Shown here: in pieces, positions 16,533 to 27,765 of the stretch
Numbering within the stretch: position 1 is the first letter of the stretch
Layout of the letters: each line of letters opens with the position of its first letter
Source of the DNA: Desulfocurvus sp.
GTDB taxonomy: Bacteria > Desulfobacterota > Desulfovibrionia > Desulfovibrionales > Desulfovibrionaceae
Assembly: GCA_020692325.1 (NCBI GenBank)
Contig: JAIMKR010000003.1
Span: forward strand, 282,262 to 324,402
DNA: 42,141 nt
Direction: 5' to 3'
Program-made: the position numbers and the translations under genes
Notes under the pieces: model-generated
What the model was told of the DNA's origin: nothing
Seen by the model: the letters and a program-made list of their open reading frames with translations, nothing else
Database searches by the model: none

Positions 16533-16922
16533 CTATTCCCCCTTCGCCGCGCGGCGGCGATCGTAGGCGATGTGGATGATGCCGAGCAGTTCGTCCATGG
16601 CGTAGGGCTTGAGGATGTAGTCCGAACCGCCGTGGGCCATCATCTCGGCGGCGATGTCCACCGAGGCGTGTCCGGTGAGCACGACGACCTCGATGTCCGG
16701 GTCGATTTTCTTGATCTCCGGCAGGGTTTGCTGGCCGGTCATGCCGGGCATCTTCACGTCGAGCAGGACGATGTCGTGCGGATCGCGCCGCAGAATCTCC
16801 AGGGCCTCGGCCCCGCCGCCGGCGGTGGTCACGCTCATGCCCTGGGCGGCGAGCAGTTTGGCCAGCGTAGAGCGGAAGCGCTCCTCGTCATCCACCACGA
16901 GAACCTTGATGATCTCGTCCAT
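16533..16922 (-). CDS. Single-domain response regulator (CheY-like)
   Basis: A 129-aa protein consisting of one receiver domain. The acidic pair is Asp11/Asp12 (VLVVDDEE), the phospho-acceptor Asp55 (IVLLDVKMPG), the switch Thr in VVVLTGHAS, and the conserved Lys in YILKPYAMDEL. There is no output domain, so it must act on a partner protein or as a phosphate relay. GGGGAGGA precedes the chosen ATG; the frame extends upstream to 17033 without family similarity. It lies between a terminator and the FAH gene; no kinase is adjacent. Confidence 0.88.
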   Translation of the reverse strand: MDEIIKVLVVDDEERFRSTLAKLLAAQGMSVTTAGGGAEALEILRRDPHDIVLLDVKMPGMTGQQTLPEIKKIDPDIEVVVLTGHASVDIAAEMMAHGGSDYILKPYAMDELLGIIHIAYDRRRAAKGE

Positions 16923-17024
16923 GCGCCGTCCTCCCCGCGGTTCCTCGCGGAGGCCACGGAAACGCGGCCTCCATCCGCCATCCTTGCCACATCGGACCGG
17001 ATTCGTCGAGGGGCGCGGCGGGGG

Positions 17025-17069
17025 CGAAAACAAGACCCGCGCCGGCCCGGGGTTCGGGCGCGGCGCGGG
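17025..17069 (-). terminator. Strong rho-independent terminator after the TauE/SafE gene
   Basis: Downstream of the TauE stop, the minus strand folds 17055-17069 against 17036-17050: a stem of about 14 GC-rich pairs with a single bulge and a 4-nt loop, followed by TCTTGTTTTCG (17025-17035). It separates the TauE operon from the response regulator and FAH genes. Confidence 0.7.
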
Positions 17070-17096: not shown

Positions 17097-18164
17097 TTAG
17101 GCCTGACCGTAGGCGGTCTGGTCGGCCTGCCGGGCCATGGCCCTGCGGGCCTTGACCATGGCGCCAAGGATGATGACGGCGCCAAGGGCCAGCGCCGCGC
17201 ACATGATGCCGAAGCTCACCGCGTCCATGATGGACACGGCGTCCTTGGAGATGTTCATGAGGCCGAGCTGGGCGAGGTACTTGGGCATGGCCAGCGCGCG
17301 GCTCACGGCCACGATGAGCATGATGGAGCCCATGACGACCTTGATCATGACCTCGCGCACCAGGGTGGTGCCGATGGCGCCCAGCTGCACGCCGAGCAGC
17401 GAGCCGGCCAGGATGATCAGGGTGAGACGGATGTCGACCATGCCCTGCATGGCCCAGTTGACCGTGCCGCACAGACCCATGAGGAAGGCGAGAACCAGCT
17501 CGGAAGCGGAGGCGACCAGGCCGCCGACGCCCATCACATAGATCATGCCGGGCACGCCGATGAAGCCGCCCACGGCGATGGTGGCGGCCAGCATGCCGGT
17601 GGCGAAGCCTACGGGAACGGTGAACCACAGGGAGATGCGCACGTTGGCGGTTTTGAAGTAGACCATGGGCCACAGGTTGATCTTCTGCAGCTTGAGTGCC
17701 AGCGCCGGGGTCTTGTCCTGGCCGGTGCCCTTGCGGGACTTCATGGCGTCGTAGAAGACGTAGCCGCCCACGGTGATCAGCACCGTGACGAAGGACAGAC
17801 TGACGTAGAGGTTGGAGCCGGCCTGCCCCCAGGCCGCCAGGATCATGTTCTGTATTTTGATGCCCACCTGCACGCCGATGCCGGCGCTGGCTGCGGTGAC
17901 GACGCCGAGCTTCACGTCCACCTGACCGTAGCGGAAACGCTTGATCGCGCCCACCAGGGCCTTGGGGAACTTGTGGCACATGTTGCTGGCCACGGCCACG
18001 GTTCCGGGCACGCCCAGGCTCATCATGCCCGGGGTGAGCACGAAGGCCCCGCCGGAGCCGATGAAGCCGCTCACCAGGCCGCCGATGAAGCCGACGATGA
18101 GCAGGAAAATGACGTTGGCCGTGGTCAGGTCGATGAATCTCAGACTATCGAGTGCGACGTCCAT
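17097..18164 (-). CDS. TauE/SafE-family membrane exporter
   Basis: A 355-aa polytopic membrane protein with about eight hydrophobic segments. The N-terminal repeat shows FIGGLVSGFIGSGGAFVLTP and the second half TIAVGGFIGVPGMIYVMGVG, the paired motifs of the TauE/SafE family (sulfite, sulfoacetate or other organosulfur anions). In a sulfate reducer, export or uptake of a sulfur oxyanion is the natural guess, but the substrate is unknown. The segment between the halves is longer than in minimal members. It ends an operon with a 58-aa protein, a universal-stress-like protein and a small membrane protein, and is followed by a terminator. Confidence 0.85.
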   Translation of the reverse strand: MDVALDSLRFIDLTTANVIFLLIVGFIGGLVSGFIGSGGAFVLTPGMMSLGVPGTVAVASNMCHKFPKALVGAIKRFRYGQVDVKLGVVTAASAGIGVQVGIKIQNMILAAWGQAGSNLYVSLSFVTVLITVGGYVFYDAMKSRKGTGQDKTPALALKLQKINLWPMVYFKTANVRISLWFTVPVGFATGMLAATIAVGGFIGVPGMIYVMGVGGLVASASELVLAFLMGLCGTVNWAMQGMVDIRLTLIILAGSLLGVQLGAIGTTLVREVMIKVVMGSIMLIVAVSRALAMPKYLAQLGLMNISKDAVSIMDAVSFGIMCAALALGAVIILGAMVKARRAMARQADQTAYGQA

Positions 18165-18189: not shown

Positions 18190-18492
18190 TTAGGCGTTCA
18201 GGGTGGCGCGCGCTTCCGGGCGCTTGGTCTGGGTCTTCACGGCCTGGGCGGTCTTGGCCGGGACCTTGGCGGTGATGCCGAGAGCCGTCCACAGATTGGA
18301 GGCGAAACCGCCATGCACGAAGGAAACCAAAAGCACCGTGGCGATGGGCAGGGCCGTGTAGCCCCCGCCGCGCGAGCACAACTCCACGAAGGCGTTGGGG
18401 TCGTAGAAGGCCCCCGCGTACACCGCCGCGCTGGCGATGCCGAACCCGATCATCCGAATCACGGCCTGCTTCTTCGTCAACTCATGAGCCAT
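18190..18492 (-). CDS. Small two-helix membrane protein, unknown function
   Basis: A 100-aa protein with two hydrophobic stretches (residues ~12-28, VIRMIGFGIASAAVYAGAF, and ~45-65, GYTALPIATVLLVSFVHGGF) and a basic C-terminal tail. I do not recognise a family. It sits 25 nt upstream of the TauE/SafE gene and downstream of the universal-stress-like gene, so it may be an accessory subunit of the exporter. The start at 18492 has GGGAGGAAGCA just upstream. Confidence 0.65.
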   Translation of the reverse strand: MAHELTKKQAVIRMIGFGIASAAVYAGAFYDPNAFVELCSRGGGYTALPIATVLLVSFVHGGFASNLWTALGITAKVPAKTAQAVKTQTKRPEARATLNA

Positions 18493-18572: not shown

Positions 18573-19115
18573 TCAACACTTGAGCGAAAATTCGGGCACC
18601 ATCAGCGCGGCCTGCCGACGCTCGGCCTCGGCGCGGCGGGAAATGACGAACTCCACGCGCCGCAGCTCCATGCTCACGGAGGTGAGCACCTCGTCGCGCT
18701 CGCCCTGGCGGATGATGTGCGCGCAACGCACGCCCCGGCTCTCCGCCTCGGCGAAGAGCCCCTCGGCTCCGGCCTCGGCGCGGACGCGGCAGTCCGCCTC
18801 GCGGCGGCGCGGCGGAAACACGGTGAGCAGCACCAGGTCGAACCCCAGGCGCTCCGCGAGATTCACGCTGTAGGCCACCATGGCCTCGGGCACGCCGTCG
18901 GTTCCCGCCAGCACCAGGATTTTGCGGTGCTCGGCGTGAAACTCGCCAAGGATCTCCCGCGCAAGGCCGCTCTCGCCAGCCTCGGCCATGGAGACGGCCT
19001 CGCCGTAGGTCTCCATGGCTTCACGCCAGCCGCCGCGAAGGCGCAGCGAGAACCCGGCACCGGATTGGGGCTGCCGGGTGGTCTTCTCTGCGGACTTGGG
19101 GGCGCGGCGGGGCAT
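18573..19115 (-). CDS. Universal-stress-protein-like protein
   Basis: A 180-aa protein. Residues ~60-175 have a USP-like alpha/beta pattern: a first strand HRKILVLAGTDGVPEAMVAYSVNLAERLGFDLVLLTVFP, a middle part with RAEAGAEGLFAEAESRGVRCAHIIRQG, and a last strand RVEFVISRR. The ATP-binding GxxGS motif of classical USPs is not visible, so it may not bind nucleotide. The first ~45 residues are a basic, disordered-looking extension. An AAGGAG 9 nt ahead of 19115 favours that ATG over the one 27 nt upstream. It starts 29 nt after the 58-aa gene, in the TauE operon. Confidence 0.65.
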   Translation of the reverse strand: MPRRAPKSAEKTTRQPQSGAGFSLRLRGGWREAMETYGEAVSMAEAGESGLAREILGEFHAEHRKILVLAGTDGVPEAMVAYSVNLAERLGFDLVLLTVFPPRRREADCRVRAEAGAEGLFAEAESRGVRCAHIIRQGERDEVLTSVSMELRRVEFVISRRAEAERRQAALMVPEFSLKC

Positions 19116-19144
19116 GGCGCGGTTCTCCTTTTCTTCCTTCACTC

Positions 19145-19321
19145 TCAGGCCTTCAGGCTGGGACGCGGGCGGTTGCGGCGGGCCTCGGCCGCGCGCGCGG
19201 CGGACTGGGCGCGGGGCTGTGCGCCCTCGCCGAGAAACTCGCGGGCTTCCTGAGGCAGACCGCGCTCGGCGAAGGCCGCGGCGGCGAAGGTGTTCTCGAG
19301 GGTTTCACGCAGGCTGCTCAT
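19145..19321 (-). CDS. 58-aa small protein heading the TauE operon
   Basis: An ATG at 19321 opens a 58-codon frame ending with TGA at 19145-19147. The protein begins MSSLRETLENTFAAAAFAER, then GLPQEAREFLGEGAQPRAQ, and ends in a basic RRNRPRPSLKA. GGAGGATCCT stands directly before the ATG, a near-ideal ribosome binding site, and the next gene follows within 29 nt. It is Ala/Arg-rich with a likely amphipathic first helix. I do not recognise it. Context suggests co-expression with the universal-stress-like protein and the exporter. Confidence 0.65.
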   Translation of the reverse strand: MSSLRETLENTFAAAAFAERGLPQEAREFLGEGAQPRAQSAARAAEARRNRPRPSLKA

Positions 19322-19360
19322 AGGATCCTCCGTGTTGGCGTTGCAGTTGCCCGTACTCTT

Positions 19361-19450: not shown

Positions 19451-19467
19451 TGTTGCAGATCGCAACA
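19451..19467. promoter_or_regulatory. TGTTGC-N5-GCAACA palindrome, site 1
   Basis: TGTTGCAGATCGCAACA is a perfect inverted repeat with 6-bp arms and a 5-bp centre, flanked by G on both sides. It lies in the divergent region between the TauE operon and the Lon-like gene, about 75 nt upstream of the candidate sigma-54 element. Confidence 0.65.
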
Positions 19468-19541: not shown

Positions 19542-19558
19542 TGTTGCGTATTGCAACA
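19542..19558. promoter_or_regulatory. TGTTGC-N5-GCAACA palindrome, site 2
   Basis: TGTTGCGTATTGCAACA repeats the same 6-bp arms and 5-bp spacing as the palindrome at 19451. It ends 40 nt upstream of the -35 box of the Lon-like gene, so a bound regulator could affect both divergent units. Confidence 0.65.
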
Positions 19559-19597: not shown

Positions 19598-19627
19598 TTG
19601 ACACCGACCGAACGCCATGCGTACATT
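19598..19627 (+). promoter_or_regulatory. Predicted sigma-70 type promoter of the REC-Lon gene
   Basis: A perfect TTGACA (19598-19603) is followed after 18 nt by TACATT (19622-19627, 4 of 6 consensus bases). Transcription would start near 19634, leaving a GC-rich leader of about 60 nt before the ATG at 19697. Confidence 0.55.
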
Positions 19628-19696: not shown

Positions 19697-21727
19697 ATGA
19701 TTTTCTTCCGCAGGACCGAGGAGGAGCCCGCCGCGCCACAGACACCGGCCGACGGCAAGGGACTGGACGATCTGCGCGGGCGGGTGCGCCGGGCAGACCT
19801 GCCCGAGGCCGTGGCCACCATCGCGGCCAAGGAGCTGGACCGGCTGGAGAAGACCGACCCGGCGGTGGCCGAGTATTCCATCGGCCTCAACTATCTGGAC
19901 CTGCTCTGCTCCCTGCCGTGGAACACGGGGACCGAGGATTGCCTCGACTTCGCCAGCGTGGAGCGAACGCTCAGCGCCAGCCATTTCGGGCTGCCCCACG
20001 TGAAGGAGCGTCTGCTGGAGTATCTGGCCGGACGCACGCTCGCCGCCAGCGCGCCGCCGCACGTGCTCGTGGTGGACGACGAGGAGATCGCCCGCGCCAA
20101 TCTGGAGCACGTACTCAAAAAGGAGGGCTACGAGGTGCGCACGGCCGCCAACGGCCTGGAGGCCCTGGAACTGCTGCGCGCCTGGAGCTTCGACCTCATC
20201 GTCACCGACCTCAAGATGGACAAGATGGATGGCATGACGCTGCTGGCCGAGGCGGGCAAGCTCTCGCCCTCCACGCGCATCGTCATCGTCACCGGCTACG
20301 CCACGGTGAACTCGGCCGTGCAGGCCATGCGCACCGGCGCGGCGCAGTATCTCAGCAAACCCATCAGTCTGGACGAGCTGCGCGCGGCCGTGCGCGAGGC
20401 GTTGGCCCACAAGCGGACCCTGGCCCCGGCGCGCGGTCCGGTGCTCTGCTTCACCGGCCCTCCGGGCACGGGGAAAACGAGCATCGGCATGGCCATAGCC
20501 CAGGCACTGGGCCGCAAGTTCCACCGCATGTCCATGGCCGGCATGCGCGACGAGGCCGAGCTGCGCGGCCATCGCCGAACCTACGTGGGGGCCATGCCGG
20601 GCAAGATCATCCAGGCCGTGCGCCGGCTGGGCGTGAACAACCCCGTCATCATGCTCGACGAGATCGACAAGGTGGGACAGGACTTCCGGGGCGATCCCGG
20701 CGCGGTGTTCCTGGAGGTGCTGGACCCGGAACAGAACCGGCAATTCACGGACCTGTACCTGGACGCGCCCTTCGACCTCTCGCGGGTCATGTTCATCGCC
20801 ACGGCCAACGACCTCTCCCGCCTGGACGCGCCCCTGCAGGACCGGCTGGAGGTGGTGCGCTTCCCCGGCTACACCAAGGCGGAGAAGGAGCAGATCGCCC
20901 TGCGGCACATGATTCCCCGGCAGTGCGCCGAGCACGGCCTGACGCACCCCTACCCCGCCTTCGCGCCGGAGGCCGTGCGCACCGTCATCCGCGACTACAC
21001 GCGCGAGGCCGGCGTGCGCAACCTGGACCGCGAGATCGGCTCCGTGTGCCGCAAGCTGGCGCGCCTGGCCCTGCGCGAGGAAAACGGCGGCAAGTACCCG
21101 GCCGCGATCGACGCCGCCCTCGTAGCCGACCTGCTCGGCCCCCGGCGCTTCGTGCACGAGTCCGCCAGACCGGCCCCGCGCCCCGGCGTGGTCAACGGGC
21201 TGGTCTACAGCGACGCCGGCGGCGAGATCGTGCTGGTGGAGGCGGCCAAAATGCGCGGCTCGGGCCAACTCATGCTCACGGGGTCGCTGGGCGAGGTGCT
21301 CAAGGAATCCGCCCGGACCGCCCTGTCATACATTCGCGGCAACGCCGAATCCTTCGGGCTCGATCCCGACTTCTTCGCCGCCCAGGACCTGCACATCCAC
21401 ATCCCGGCGGGCGCCATCCCCAAGGACGGCCCGTCGGCCGGCATGACCATCCTCATGGCCCTGCTCTCCCTTCTGACCGGCCGGCCGTCGAAACCCGGCG
21501 TGGCCATGACCGGCGAGATATCGCTAAGCGGCGTGCTTCTGCCCGTGGCGGGCATCCGCGAGAAGGTGCTGGCGGCCCAGCGCGGCGGCGTCACGCTGGT
21601 GGCCCTGCCTGCGGCCAACCGGCCGGAGGCCGAGCTGCTGGAGCCGGACGTGCGCGCGGCGGTGAAAATCGTGCTGGCCGAGGACGTGCCGGCGTTGGTG
21701 GACGTGGTGCTGGAGGGGAAGGACTAA
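19697..21727 (+). CDS. Lon-type ATP-dependent protease with receiver domain (REC-Lon)
   Basis: A 676-aa serine protease with an unusual layout. Residues ~25-118 are the helical linker of Lon (YLDLLCSLPWN, FGLPHVKERLLEYLAGRTLA). A full response-regulator receiver follows at ~122-240: Asp127/Asp128, phospho-acceptor Asp171, TGYATV, Lys221. The Lon sequence resumes at RTLAPARGPVLCFTGPPGTGK, with Walker A at 254-261, Walker B VIMLDE at 317-322, and the protease domain with Ser580 (PKDGPSAGMT) and Lys623 (IREKVLAA). The ~200-residue N-terminal substrate domain of Lon is absent. ACAAGGAG precedes the ATG; the frame opens upstream at a TTG without support. The 3' end overlaps convergent modB by 4 nt. 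Proteolysis may be controlled by phosphorylation. Confidence 0.92.
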   Translation: MIFFRRTEEEPAAPQTPADGKGLDDLRGRVRRADLPEAVATIAAKELDRLEKTDPAVAEYSIGLNYLDLLCSLPWNTGTEDCLDFASVERTLSASHFGLPHVKERLLEYLAGRTLAASAPPHVLVVDDEEIARANLEHVLKKEGYEVRTAANGLEALELLRAWSFDLIVTDLKMDKMDGMTLLAEAGKLSPSTRIVIVTGYATVNSAVQAMRTGAAQYLSKPISLDELRAAVREALAHKRTLAPARGPVLCFTGPPGTGKTSIGMAIAQALGRKFHRMSMAGMRDEAELRGHRRTYVGAMPGKIIQAVRRLGVNNPVIMLDEIDKVGQDFRGDPGAVFLEVLDPEQNRQFTDLYLDAPFDLSRVMFIATANDLSRLDAPLQDRLEVVRFPGYTKAEKEQIALRHMIPRQCAEHGLTHPYPAFAPEAVRTVIRDYTREAGVRNLDREIGSVCRKLARLALREENGGKYPAAIDAALVADLLGPRRFVHESARPAPRPGVVNGLVYSDAGGEIVLVEAAKMRGSGQLMLTGSLGEVLKESARTALSYIRGNAESFGLDPDFFAAQDLHIHIPAGAIPKDGPSAGMTILMALLSLLTGRPSKPGVAMTGEISLSGVLLPVAGIREKVLAAQRGGVTLVALPAANRPEAELLEPDVRAAVKIVLAEDVPALVDVVLEGKD

Positions 21728-22416
21728 ACGCCCTCGCCGCCCAGGCGCTTGAGGGCGATGGTGAGGGCCACGGCCACCACGGCGAGCAAAAGCGCCAGCA
21801 CGCCGGCCCGGGCCAGGTCGCCCGTGAACACGGCGTTGTAGATCTCCAGCGAGACCGTGTTGGTGCGGCCGATGATGTCGCCGCCGAGCAGCAGGCTCAC
21901 GCCCACCTCGCCCAGCGCCCGGCCCGCGCCCAGGAACAGCCCGGCGGCCACGCTGCGCCGGCAGTGCGGCAGAGCCACGCGCAGAAACGTCACGGGCCAG
22001 GGTTTGCCGAGCATGGTCGAAAGCTCGATGAGCCGGCCGAGGTCGCCGCGCACGGCCGCCTGCACCGGCCGCACCATGAGCGGCATCCCCGCCGTCACCG
22101 CCGCCAACGCCAACCCGCCGAAGCCGAACACCACCTCCGCGTCGAACCAGCGCAGCAGCGGCGCGCCGAGAAATCCCCCGCGACCGAAGAGCAGCAGCAG
22201 CCCGAAGCCCACGGCCATGGGCGGCAGAATCAGCGGCAGCGAGACGAAGGCGTCCAGCACGGCCACGAGCCGGCCGCGCCCGCGTCCCAGCAGGTAACCC
22301 AGCGGGGCCCCCACGAGCAGAAGGATCGGCACGGCCACGGCCATGACCTTGAGCGTGAGCAGAATGCAGAAGCCCACGCCGGGATCCATGGCCGCGGCCA
22401 GCCAGCCGTCGAACAT
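21724..22416 (-). CDS. modB: Molybdate-type ABC transporter permease
   Basis: A 230-aa inner-membrane protein with five to six hydrophobic segments. The EAA-loop region reads FLGAGRALGEVGVSLLLGG followed by IIGRTNTVSLEIYNAVFTGD, which is the ModB pattern. It forms the membrane channel of a molybdate or related oxyanion importer. It starts 4 nt after the binding-protein gene, and its stop overlaps the stop of the convergent REC-Lon gene by 4 nt. Confidence 0.88.
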   Translation of the reverse strand: MFDGWLAAAMDPGVGFCILLTLKVMAVAVPILLLVGAPLGYLLGRGRGRLVAVLDAFVSLPLILPPMAVGFGLLLLFGRGGFLGAPLLRWFDAEVVFGFGGLALAAVTAGMPLMVRPVQAAVRGDLGRLIELSTMLGKPWPVTFLRVALPHCRRSVAAGLFLGAGRALGEVGVSLLLGGDIIGRTNTVSLEIYNAVFTGDLARAGVLALLLAVVAVALTIALKRLGGEGV

Positions 22417-22420
22417 GCGC

Positions 22421-23140
22421 CTACAACCCGTGCCTCTTGGCGATCCCGCGCGCCTGCGGCGACGCCAGGAACCTCACGAAGGCCGCGACCTCCGGGTCGC
22501 TCGCGGCGGGCTTCAACACGCCCGCGCCGATGACGATGGGCGCGTACAGCTTCGGATCGACCCTGAGGTAGCCGCCGATCCTGCCGCCCAGGTCCATGAC
22601 GTCGGTGAGGTTGGTCAGACCGGCGTCCACCTCGCCGAGCGCGAGGTACGTGGTCACCTGTGGCACGGTGGCCACCACCAACAGCTTGCCGCGCACCTTG
22701 TCCATCAGTCCGGAGGCGTTCAGCGCCTCGGTTCCGGCCTTACCGTAAATGGCCTTCTGGGCGTCGGGCATGGCCACGCGCTTCACCTCGGCCCGGGTCA
22801 GGTCGTTCAGACCGGTCATGACGCGGCCCTTGGGCCAGGCCAGCACCAGCACACCACGCCCCAGTTCGTGGAACGAGGCGAAGGACACGCCGCTGCGGTC
22901 GAGGAAGCCCTTCTCACCGATGATGACGCGCACCTTGCCGCTGCCCTTGGCCTGGGCCACCACCTGCCCCATGTTGCCGAAGACCAGCTCCAGCTTGTGC
23001 CCGCTCTGTTTCTCGTAGGTCGCGGCGAGCTCCGTGACGAGCTTCTTGTACCCCGCGCCCGAGGCCACGATGACCGATTCGGCCCGGGCCGTGGCGGCCA
23101 GGGCGAACACGAACAGCAACGCCAGTGCGAATTTCCTCAT
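22421..23140 (-). CDS. modA: Molybdate/tungstate-type periplasmic binding protein (ModA-like)
   Basis: A 239-aa protein with a clean signal peptide (MRKFALALLFVFALAATARA) and a two-lobe binding-protein body. ASGAGYKKLVTELAATYEK, then GNMGQVVAQAKGSGKV, match a divergent ModA-like group; the LVVATVPQVTTYLALGEVDAG segment is the hinge region. Oxyanion specificity (molybdate, tungstate or another anion) cannot be told from sequence. Its ATG overlaps the ATPase gene stop as ATGA. Gene order ATPase-binding protein-permease is not the usual modABC order. Confidence 0.8.
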   Translation of the reverse strand: MRKFALALLFVFALAATARAESVIVASGAGYKKLVTELAATYEKQSGHKLELVFGNMGQVVAQAKGSGKVRVIIGEKGFLDRSGVSFASFHELGRGVLVLAWPKGRVMTGLNDLTRAEVKRVAMPDAQKAIYGKAGTEALNASGLMDKVRGKLLVVATVPQVTTYLALGEVDAGLTNLTDVMDLGGRIGGYLRVDPKLYAPIVIGAGVLKPAASDPEVAAFVRFLASPQARGIAKRHGL

Positions 23141-23951: not shown

Positions 23952-24707
23952 TCACAGCGACTGGGCGCAGAAGCGCGTGAGCCCAAGGAGAATGCAGGCC
24001 GCCGCGCCCGTGACGCCGAAGACCACCAGCCGCGGAACGTGGAGAAAATCGGACAGCGTGCCGTTGGCGCAGGTGGAGCCGGTGACCAGCGCCACGTCGG
24101 CCCAGGTTAGTGCGTCCTTTTGCGCATCCGGTCCCTCGACGAGCGCCCCGCGCAGCGTTTTGCCGATGTTGTCGCGGTCCAGGTCCAACACGCGGTAGTT
24201 CGAAAACTCGCGCGAGAGCGCCTCCACGAACTTCGGCTGAAAGCCCACCTGCAACAACCGCGCGCCGGCGAAACGCTCCAGCATGTAGTTCGTGAGCTCG
24301 CGCGCGCAAAGCGCCGGGCCGTCGTCGCGGCAGTGCACCGTGTGGTCGCACAGGCCAAGGGCGCGCAGACTCGCGTTCATGGCGCTGACGAACACCGCCC
24401 GACGGAAGTTGTTGACCAGGGGCATGGACGCGATTTCGCCCAGCGTGCCGGAGAAGTCGCCGTACATGTCCGTGAAGGCGTGGCCGCGCGCGCCCAGCAC
24501 CTCGGCCTCGATCATGCGCTCCTTGCCCTTTCGCAGCGGGAAGTCGTCGCCCTCGGGATCGCCGATGGCCTCCTGAGTGGACAGCACGCGCGCATGAACG
24601 CCCACGTGCTCGTCCAGCAACCCCTTCTCCTCCCACAGCGCAACGGCCTTGCCGCGCAACAGCTCCAACAAATTTTCCGCCGATGCCGCCGACCGGTTTC
24701 CCGTCAT
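23952..24707 (-). CDS. DUF4213/DUF364 protein (putative heavy-metal chelation family)
   Basis: A 251-aa cytoplasmic protein. The N-terminal half fits DUF4213 (enolase-like fold: TDMYGDFSGTLGEIASM, VFVSAMNASLRALGLCDHTVHCRDDG). The C-terminal half fits DUF364, a Rossmann-like domain: ARLLQVGFQPKFVEAL, YRVLDLDRDNIG, WADVALVTGSTCANGT, ending LVVFGVTGAAACILLG. Members are found next to metal or cofactor transport genes, with no proven activity. Here it is the first gene of the molybdate-type transporter operon, so handling of Mo, W or another metal ligand is a reasonable guess. The start at 24707 has GAAGGG upstream; the frame is open to 24776. Confidence 0.75.
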   Translation of the reverse strand: MTGNRSAASAENLLELLRGKAVALWEEKGLLDEHVGVHARVLSTQEAIGDPEGDDFPLRKGKERMIEAEVLGARGHAFTDMYGDFSGTLGEIASMPLVNNFRRAVFVSAMNASLRALGLCDHTVHCRDDGPALCARELTNYMLERFAGARLLQVGFQPKFVEALSREFSNYRVLDLDRDNIGKTLRGALVEGPDAQKDALTWADVALVTGSTCANGTLSDFLHVPRLVVFGVTGAAACILLGLTRFCAQSL

Positions 24708-24825
24708 GACGCGCCCTTCGCCTTCCGGCGTTTTTTTCTTTTTTGTCCAAAACGCCGCCGCGCGCCATGCGATCACGGATCATATTATTTGGGTGCCCAC
24801 AAGGACGGCATGGACGCCGGGATGG

Positions 24826-24853: not shown

Positions 24854-24898
24854 CAAAGCGGTGCAGGAAAAAGCCCCCCTTATTGTTTCGAGGTGCCA

Positions 24899-26403
24899 GT
24901 GCCATCGTCCAAGCCCTTGCTGCGCATGAACATCCGCCGCCGCGTCTTTCTCGCGATGCTGCTCTCGGTCTTCGCGGTCGGGCTCATCGGCACGGTGTCG
25001 TACCATTCCCTGGCGCAGATCGAGCGCAAGATGGGCTTCATCGAGGTGGTGGACGATCTGGGCAACACCATCCTGGAGATCCGCCGCTACGAGAAGAACT
25101 TCATGCTCTACGGCCACAGCGAGGACTTCGCCGAGAGCCGGGAGTACGCGGACAAGGCGCGCGCCATCCTGTTCAAACTGGAGGGCAACGCGGCCGAATT
25201 CGGCCTGGCCCAGGAATACGCCGCGCTCAAAACCGTGCTGGCCGACTATGAAGCCGTGAGCAAGCGGCTCACGGTGGAACGCATGCGCTCCGGCCCCACG
25301 CTGGAGGCCGACCGCGTCCGCCTGCGCGACACGGGCAAACAGCTGGTCGACCTCTCGCAGCGGCTGGTGGTGCACGAACGCGCGCGCATGTTGACCATCG
25401 TGCAGTCGCTCAAGCGACAGCTGCTGCTCTCGGTCGCGGCGTTCCTGCTGTTGGGCGGCGGATTCCTGTTCCTGCTGGGGCACAAGACATCGACCGCCCT
25501 GCGCAGCATCGAGCAGGCCACGCGAGAGATCGCCCGGGGGCACTTCAAGCCTCTGCCGCCCGCGCCCGGCGGAGCCGACGACGAGGTGCGACGCGTCATC
25601 GGCGCGTTCAACAACATGACCGGCGAGCTGCAGAAGCGCCAGGATCAGCTGGTGCGGGAAAAGAAGCTGGCCTCGCTCGGAGTGCTGACCAGCGGCGTGG
25701 CCCACCAGCTGAACAATCCGCTCAACAACATCTCCACCTCCTGCCAGATCCTCATGGAGGAGGGGGACGAGGCAGACCCCGTCTTCGCCCGCAGGCTGCT
25801 GGGCAACATCGACCAGGAGGTTGCCCGCGCGCGCGACATCGTGAAGGGGCTGCTCGAATTCTCGCGCGCCAAGGACTTCGAGCGCAAGCCGACGGTCCTG
25901 GCCGAGGTGGTGGAGCGCTCGGTGCGGCTCATCTCCAGCCAGGTGCCGGCGGACGTGGAAATCACCCGGGAGGTCCCCGCCGACATCGTTCTGCCCATGG
26001 ACGCCCAGCGGATGCAGGAGGTCTTCCTCAACCTGCTCATCAACGGCCTGCACGCCCTGCAGGCCACGCCGCAACGCGCCGGAACCATCGATATCTCCGC
26101 CGCCCGCGATGACGAGCGCGGGCTGGCCGTCGTCACCGTGGCCGACACCGGCGTGGGCATCGATCCCGAGGATCTCGCCCGCATCTTCGATCCCTTCTTC
26201 ACCACCAAGGAGGTGGGCAAGGGCACCGGCCTGGGCCTGTCCATCGTCTTCGGCATCGTGGAGAAGCATCATGGCGAAATCTCCGTGGAGAGCGAGCCCG
26301 GCCACGGCGCGCGGTTCATTCTGCGCCTGCCGCTTTCCCTGCCAGCCCTGCGCGGGGAGATCCCGGCCGGTTCCGCCGCCGCCCCCAAGGAAGGGGCCAG
26401 GAC

Positions 26404-26407
<4 letters not shown>
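24899..26407 (+). CDS. Membrane sensor histidine kinase (NtrB-like class)
   Basis: A kinase of about 502 aa. TM1 lies near residues 15-35; then ~140 residues, mostly helical, form a periplasmic sensor of four-helix-bundle type (IRRYEKNFMLYG); TM2 lies near 174-194 (LLLSVAAFLLLGGGFLFLL). A HAMP linker (RSIEQATREIARGHFKPL...EVRRVIGAFNNM) leads to the phospho-acceptor in GVAHQLNNPLNNI. The ATPase domain has NLLINGLHAL, DTGVGI and GTGLGLSIV. The start is a GTG at 24899, chosen because GAGG lies 5 nt upstream; a GTG at 24893 and an ATG at 24926 are alternatives. It overlaps the activator gene by 4 nt. Confidence 0.88.

Positions 26408-27765
<1,358 letters not shown>

Follow-up and report, generated by a model that had tools for sequence, protein, structure and literature searches.

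The open reading frame (ORF) at positions 19697-21727 of a 42,141-nucleotide stretch of Desulfocurvus sp. DNA, called the window here, encodes a Lon protease of 676 amino acid residues that contains an intact receiver domain (REC). Its ATPase and Ser/Lys protease sites are intact as well, and the N-terminal substrate domain is missing. This protein, which we call REC-Lon, is an N-terminally shortened LonA of the DVU3303 type, with the receiver inserted in the AAA+ nucleotide-binding domain. The most likely reading, to which we give a probability of about 0.6, is that one kinase phosphorylates two sibling receivers, one for transcription and one that gates the Lon protease or its motor. The protein type and the idea of its control by phosphorylation were already in print in 2011 (Rajeev 2011, PMC3333781). 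New are the exact place of the insertion, the invariance of the switch residues, the single group in the Lon tree, the counts in two phyla, the sibling receivers and the palindromes upstream of the gene.

The ORF, which lies on the plus strand, was assigned to NCBIfam lon (TIGR00763) with 636 bits against a cut-off of 608. A domain search had been proposed in an initial annotation of this DNA, and with Pfam the families Response_reg, AAA, Lon_lid and Lon_C were all matched. Response_reg covered residues 123-233 with its entire profile (1-111, E 2.4e-30). AAA (residues 250-388, E 2e-23), Lon_lid (residues 412-463, E 8.4e-19) and Lon_C (residues 471-672, E 5.1e-68) were, like Response_reg, well over their cut-offs. 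The receiver (residues 122-236, positions 20060-20404) was whole, as the initial annotation had described it: the full profile was matched, and the acidic pair D127/D128, the phospho-acceptor D171 and K221 were found at the named positions in the residue check and the family alignment, together with T199. The ATPase and protease sites were likewise intact as claimed. The Walker A motif (residues 254-261) and the Walker B residues D321/E322 were located by Pfam, the LonA alignment and the family alignment in the remaining nucleotide-binding domain (residues 246-390, positions 20432-20866). This is followed by the Lon AAA+ lid (positions 20930-21085) and by the protease domain (positions 21107-21712), in which the S580/K623 dyad was present. 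The N-terminal substrate domain is gone, also in agreement with that annotation: no Lon N-terminal substrate-domain family was among the nine Pfam families matched at E <= 0.001, and the alignment to LonA starts at LonA residue 245.

The place of the receiver was determined by alignment to Meiothermus taiwanensis LonA. Residues 22-116 aligned gapless to LonA 245-339 and residues 246-671 to LonA 347-769, and REC stands in for the 7-residue stretch 340-346. The LonA alignment, a published account of E. coli Lon and a predicted model were used to assign the segments ahead of the receiver. Three helices at residues 21-72 (positions 19757-19912) are the equivalent of the Lon three-helix bundle and form the remainder of the Lon N-terminal region. 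They are followed by the first helix of the AAA+ nucleotide-binding domain (residues 100-118, positions 19994-20050), N-terminal to REC. By our own transfer of the numbering this helix corresponds to alpha12 (331-341) of E. coli Lon (EcLon), which is counted as the start of the nucleotide-binding domain (PMC6722904). Since the helix preceding REC already belongs to that domain, the receiver is placed inside it by the alignment, nested between its first helix and the Walker A strand. The initial annotation had put REC exactly between the Lon linker and the AAA+ domain. This was slightly off, and on the alignment, the published account (PMC6722904) and the model it was dropped for the position inside the nucleotide-binding domain.

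The AlphaFold2 model of one chain was built with 41 sequences, nine of them REC-Lons, and reached a mean predicted local distance difference test score (pLDDT) of 85.0 and a predicted TM-score (pTM) of 0.76; residues 1-20, 286-298 and 575-577 were below pLDDT 50. In the model, the helix 100-118 passes nearly straight into REC strand 1 (122-126), and the last REC helix (225-239) lies nine residues from the AAA+ strand 249-253. When the model was compared with the PDB, the top 50 matches listed were all Lon chains with about 650 columns aligned, and 4YPL chain F gave a TM-score of 0.89 by target length. The Lon core is therefore predicted to close normally around REC.

The conservation of this architecture was followed in 75 REC-Lon proteins. 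With an alignment of the REC junction as the query, 395 genomes from the window's phylum were scanned, the window's own genome included. A full-length REC-Lon junction was present in 47 of them and three more junctions were cut short; any match at 1e-45 was found in 57 genomes, seven of which had a related regulator REC only. In the phylum of the homologue L007, which is titled Nitrospirota and whose genome was included, the junction was found in 25 of 198 genomes at 1e-60. The 75 proteins comprise the 47 of the first scan (the window's own included), L001-L008 and 20 of the 24 further genomes of the second phylum. L007 was assigned to the first group of 55 in spite of its title, and the second group consists of the 20. 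Overlap between the collections was judged by identity, with one pair exceeding 95% (L160/L161). L116 is a duplicate of the window and was excluded from the neighbourhood counts and later counts.

D127, D171 and K221 were present in 75/75 REC-Lons, D128 in 73 (Glu in two) and T199 in 73 (Ser in two). The Walker A Lys260, the Walker B D321/E322, N371, R441, Ser580 and Lys623 were found in every one of the 75, and the LonA criteria of Walker A/B, sensor 2 and Ser-Lys dyad applied to them all. The insert (residues 117-245) had 129 residues in 72 proteins and 130 in three. Ahead of residue 22, counted from the first possible start codon, 63/75 members had 13-29 residues and the others 0 or 35-155. 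L160 and L161 are near-identical, divergent REC-Lons with Glu for D128 and Ser for T199, and the REC of their neighbour regulator has an identity of 0.30. An assembly or frame artefact was ruled out, as the identical architecture occurs in L001-L003 at 81-84% identity and the insert length is constant across 75/75.

An unrooted Lon tree was calculated by a quick method (LG+G4) after the REC columns had been removed, with 43 of the 75 REC-Lons and 44 other Lons; the ordinary Lons were ones chosen for their likeness to REC-Lon plus two of the window's genome. The REC-Lons made up one side of a branch with a Shimodaira-Hasegawa-like approximate likelihood ratio (SH-aLRT) support of 100. A phylogeny of receiver-Lon fusions had been suggested initially as a check, and in this unrooted tree they form one group. 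Such a group fits a single origin followed by descent. That the protein is a chance fusion, a misassembly or a dead domain is hardly conceivable in view of the 75 homologues with one pair above 95% identity, of the examined catalytic residues, none of which was lost, and of the one group in the tree. The two other Lons of the window's genome (L081, L082) grouped with the ordinary Lons, so REC-Lon is an extra, specialised Lon of this genome. A fourth, weak Lon_C match there (L084, G000:C12:117188-117496; 30 bits, positions 108-199) lies in an 894-residue open frame.

Members in Thioalkalivibrio and Dechloromonas are named by Rajeev 2011 (PMC3333781). Plasmids gave 2306 matching records, and among the 10 matches listed there was no REC-Lon; these were covered to 78-81% in two pieces at 48-50% identity, like ordinary Lons. 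Further phyla gave no match in 58 genomes of the presumed phylum of L072 and in five single genomes, a search that had no positive control and is uninformative.

Downstream of REC-Lon, on the plus strand, a sensor histidine kinase (24893-26407; HAMP, HisKA and HATPase_c in Pfam) with the H-box HQLNNP is encoded, which is probably located in the membrane as judged by its HAMP domain and sequence. It is followed by a sigma-54 response regulator (26404-27765; REC, AAA+ and Fis-type helix-turn-helix in Pfam) with a GAYTGA loop. Neighbours were counted within the fetched stretch with thresholds of >100 bits for the kinase, >300 bits for the sigma-54 regulator and >200 bits for the TauE permease. 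A kinase and a sigma-54 regulator were found near REC-Lon in 62/75 loci (46/55 in the first group, 16/20 in the second) and in 41/50 of the loci with at least 7 kb on both sides (35/42 and 6/8). The regulator was on the strand opposite to REC-Lon in 36/62 loci, so the link between REC-Lon, kinase and regulator persists when they belong to different transcription units and is not explained by one operon. The phospho-Asp of the neighbour regulator was present in 62/62. The same three genes were described in Desulfovibrio vulgaris, where DVU3303 is a response regulator with a Lon protease beside the kinase DVU3304 and the sigma-54 regulator DVU3305 (Rajeev 2011, PMC3333781). A faint memory in the initial annotation, of Lon-like genes near kinase/activator pairs in Desulfovibrio, thus proved right for DVU3303-3305.

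The sigma-54 contact loops of the neighbour regulators varied in the 62 loci (e.g. L118, L005 and L006): GAFTGA was seen in 29, EAFTGA in 15, DAFTGA in six, DAYTDA in three and four other forms in nine. Some of the regulators may contact sigma-54 poorly or may not use it. DVU3305 is listed with a GAFSGA loop (PMC4641369). The phospho-His box of the kinase nearest to the regulator was HQLNNP in 30/62 and HELNNP in 24/62, and the window has the Gln beside the His.

The receivers of REC-Lon and of the neighbour regulator were then compared. With the Lon REC as the query, the regulator REC was the nearest of 59 other REC matches in the window's genome (97 bits, 48%; next 83 bits). With the regulator REC as the query, 17 other matches were obtained at 1e-10, and the Lon REC ranked first among them (97 bits; next 68). 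The first helix of a receiver (alpha1) is its main element for contact with the kinase. In alpha1, 8/15 residues were equal between the Lon REC and the neighbour regulator, and the best of 19 other RECs compared had five. Over 62 Lon/regulator pairs the mean alpha1 identity was 0.55 versus 0.24 for 31 other RECs of the same loci. The two sets of REC distances correlated with r 0.64 (maximum over 2000 permutations 0.21), as shared descent would also predict. In a REC tree of 113 rows and 116 columns, with 30/75 Lon RECs and 25/62 partner RECs, 30/30 Lon RECs and 23/25 partner RECs fell into one group with a support of 87. The 23 partner RECs were one branch (support 90) inside that group with Lon RECs on both sides of it; the remaining two (L180, L186) sat with second-type regulators. 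The simplest reading is an ancient copying of one receiver from the other, in either direction. The window also encodes a single-receiver protein (16533-17033) beside the TauE gene, whose REC ranks third among the other matches to the Lon REC, yet groups elsewhere in the REC tree.

In D. vulgaris, DVU3303-3305 were all detrimental in chlorate with pairwise cofitness >0.9, and the putative anion transporter DVU3299 was pointed to (Trotter 2023, PMC10102598). This bears on the possibility that REC is a phosphate sink or competitor, which would drain phosphoryl groups from the regulator while the Lon part is constitutive. The intact phosphorylation site and the kinase-contact helix in common with the regulator would suit such a role, but a sink has no need for an invariant protease dyad or for one fixed place of insertion in the AAA+ domain (75/75), and the same-sign cofitness with the regulator counters simple competition (PMC10102598). 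We regard a sink as very improbable.

Two palindromes were found upstream of REC-Lon, TGTTGCAGATCGCAACA at 19451-19467 and TGTTGCGTATTGCAACA at 19542-19558, 91 bp from the first. They are the only two perfect TGTTGC-N5-GCAACA palindromes in the window's genome, and both lie between REC-Lon and the divergent Usp-like/TauE genes. When one mismatch was allowed, four places matched in the genome (two more elsewhere) versus three for the pattern read backwards, so the perfect pair alone stands out. Within the window, allowing two mismatches gave two sites, both perfect, a number not above chance (shuffle mean 1.61). In the family, sites of the TGTTGC-N5-GCAACA type, of which one to two end bases may lack, were counted in the 500 bp upstream of REC-Lon, and L121, L183 and L187 were set aside from the palindrome counts as too short. 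Such a site was present in 27/54 testable loci of the first group and in 2/18 of the second. Two sites occurred in 15 of these 29 loci, with a spacing of 85-91 bp in 14 and of 186 bp in one. In the 74 loci besides the window, 42 of 60 distinct sites (1.27 Mb) were within the REC-Lon upstream stretches, which total 35.5 kb. The palindromes are candidate sites of the sigma-54 regulator, and their force lies in perfection, place and conservation.

A sigma-54 promoter for REC-Lon was sought with the TGGC-N7-TTGC type. The sole forward match in the window, TGGCGTTGCAGTTGCC at 19336, is 361 bp upstream of the gene and beyond both palindromes, and between the palindromes and the gene no such element was found. 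A sigma-70-like TTGACA-N18-TACATT lies upstream of REC-Lon at 19598-19627, though the neighbour regulator is of the sigma-54 type. Its TTGACAC is common to L002, L003 and L115 and absent from L001. In L005 and L008, good sigma-54-like elements (TGGCACAGGAGTTGCT and TGGCACAAGAGTTGCA) were seen on the reverse strand upstream of REC-Lon, facing the divergent direction.

The palindromes adjoining the REC-Lon gene would also fit a decoupling of input and output. In that case REC-Lon would be a protease induced by stress, its effect would depend on the level that the sigma-54 regulator sets, and phosphorylation would only fine-tune its stability or assembly. The published upregulation of DVU3303-3305 and/or DVU3298-3302 at high pH, in heat shock and in stationary phase (Rajeev 2011, PMC3333781) points in the same direction. 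The phosphorylation residues, however, would then not need to be invariant over 75 proteins of two phyla, and we consider this explanation improbable.

For the reading with one kinase and two receivers, the following course can be proposed. The neighbouring kinase would phosphorylate the REC of the sigma-54 regulator and the REC of Lon at Asp171, and the regulator would act on the divergent promoter region of REC-Lon and the USP-TauE genes, presumably by binding to the palindromes. On phosphorylation, receivers usually change at a face to which their last helix belongs. In REC-Lon, phosphorylation would rearrange the alpha4-beta5-alpha5 face, and the last helix, being so close to the AAA+ strand that leads to Walker A, could alter the ATPase activity, the ring state or the access to the pore. 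Gating of the motor is most likely because REC is tied tightly at both ends in the ATPase, with its last helix leading to the Walker A strand. REC would probably also substitute for the missing substrate domain in gating or in the choice of substrates. The initial claim that degradation is gated by two-component phosphorylation fits the computed data, namely the invariant D127/D171/K221, the neighbours at 62/75 loci and the common kinase-contact helix; the phosphorylation, the change of Lon activity, its direction as an activation rather than an inhibition, and the substrate are what we infer. The full proposal, a protease switched in cis by aspartyl phosphorylation, with a receiver in the motor in place of the substrate domain, its output helix tied to the Walker A strand, and one kinase that switches transcription and degradation together by way of two sibling receivers of common origin in at least two phyla, has in our estimate about even odds.

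The main rival is that REC is a built-in adaptor. It would pair with the sibling receiver of the regulator or dock on the kinase and deliver that protein to the Lon pore, which would make a feedback loop with an unswitched ATPase. Hetero-pairing of the receivers is plausible because in the window's genome each of the two RECs is the best match of the other, and REC-Lon has no substrate domain of its own. M. taiwanensis LonA without residues 1-241 (AAAP) still degrades casein, at a slightly reduced level, but is severely impaired with thermally unfolded Ig2 as the substrate (PMC8087443). Selectivity must therefore have another source. By its resemblance to this truncated LonA we expect REC-Lon to act on flexible or delivered substrates and not in general quality control. 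The fitness data speak against the adaptor, since removal of the regulator should flip the sign, unless the effects are polar, and the trio had the same sign in chlorate (PMC10102598). With that caveat, the same-sign fitness favours a positive role beside the regulator over its removal. The adaptor appears unlikely, though less so than the sink or the decoupled protease.

Several points weigh against the gating of Lon by a shared kinase. In 13/75 loci, of which nine are flanked by 7 kb or more on either side, there was no such regulator in the fetched stretch, so some REC-Lons are probably served by a distant or a different partner. The bit-score threshold admits some second-type regulators among the 62, as in L180 and L186 and, by the low REC identity, in L160/L161; the latter pair also carries the exchanges of D128 and T199. 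For the alpha1 mean of 0.55 the most similar regulator was taken where one locus had several, and the 31 control RECs include no sigma-54-type regulators. The alpha1 identity to the regulators of other genomes' loci was 0.52, so the likeness is a family property and not a fine pairing. In the REC tree, the group support of 87 on 116 columns lies under the tool's star level, and the Lon RECs are not one branch (two changes). The one-chain AlphaFold2 model does not show the ring. If the D. vulgaris trio is transcribed together, starting with the protease gene, its cofitness could be a polar effect. No report on the biochemistry of a REC-Lon (phosphorylation, ATPase, proteolysis) was found in the literature covered, most subscription journals being outside the search.

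The row of genes divergent from REC-Lon, on the minus strand, begins with a 58-residue ORF (19145-19321). It continues with a 189-residue protein (18573-19142) that is weakly Usp-like (E 0.007, 17.4 bits, under the Pfam cut-off of 24), a conserved 100-residue ORF (18190-18492) and a TauE/SafE-family permease (17097-18164, Pfam E 6e-32). A TauE permease was present in 31/55 and 14/20 REC-Lon loci of the two groups. Between REC-Lon and the kinase, the minus strand encodes a molybdate-type ATP-binding cassette (ABC) transporter, with the permease at 21724-22416 and the binding protein within 22424-23140, and a putative metal-chelation protein of the DUF364 family (23952-24776). The permease and DUF364 have matches at the equivalent place in L001, and none was among the matches listed there in L002 or L115.

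REC-Lon is well preserved by evolution and a good test object. If the gating is true, a two-component signal would control degradation directly, with no separate adaptor and in parallel to transcription from one kinase, and the protein would offer a handle on how a domain beside Walker A can regulate an AAA+ motor. The proposal of 2011 that phosphorylation activates DVU3303 (Rajeev 2011, PMC3333781) is directly testable, as D. vulgaris Hildenborough offers the protein and its partners in a laboratory host for which fitness data are available.

Compared by its published description, DVU3303 shares with REC-Lon the receiver and Lon in one chain and the neighbouring kinase and sigma-54 regulator. 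The genes controlled by DVU3305 are those of its own operon and of one upstream, which encodes UspA-type and membrane proteins and among them a putative anion transporter (PMC3333781), and the window also has an adjoining operon with a Usp-like gene, below the cut-off, and a clear TauE transporter gene. The window differs in that REC-Lon is separated from the kinase and the regulator by the molybdate-type transporter and DUF364 genes on the other strand, and in that no palindrome precedes the kinase gene. With the LonA proteins of M. taiwanensis (4YPL/7FD4) and E. coli, REC-Lon has the AAA+ core, the lid and the Ser-Lys protease domain in common, but it is without the N-terminal substrate domain, and REC replaces seven residues inside the nucleotide-binding domain. 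Its start point is nearly equal to that of the truncated M. taiwanensis LonA, and REC-Lon resembles a natural AAAP, which differs in having no receiver. Control of a Lon through phosphorylation is already known from Xanthomonas citri, in which the phosphorylation of Lon at Ser654 is described to deactivate proteolysis and stabilise a regulator (PMC5784255). There, a Ser of an ordinary Lon is modified, whereas REC-Lon would be phosphorylated by a two-component kinase on an Asp of its built-in receiver. With CpdR and RssB, the phosphorylation of a receiver also controls proteolysis, and the receiver is a separate adaptor of ClpXP. In REC-Lon, by contrast, the receiver belongs to the protease chain.

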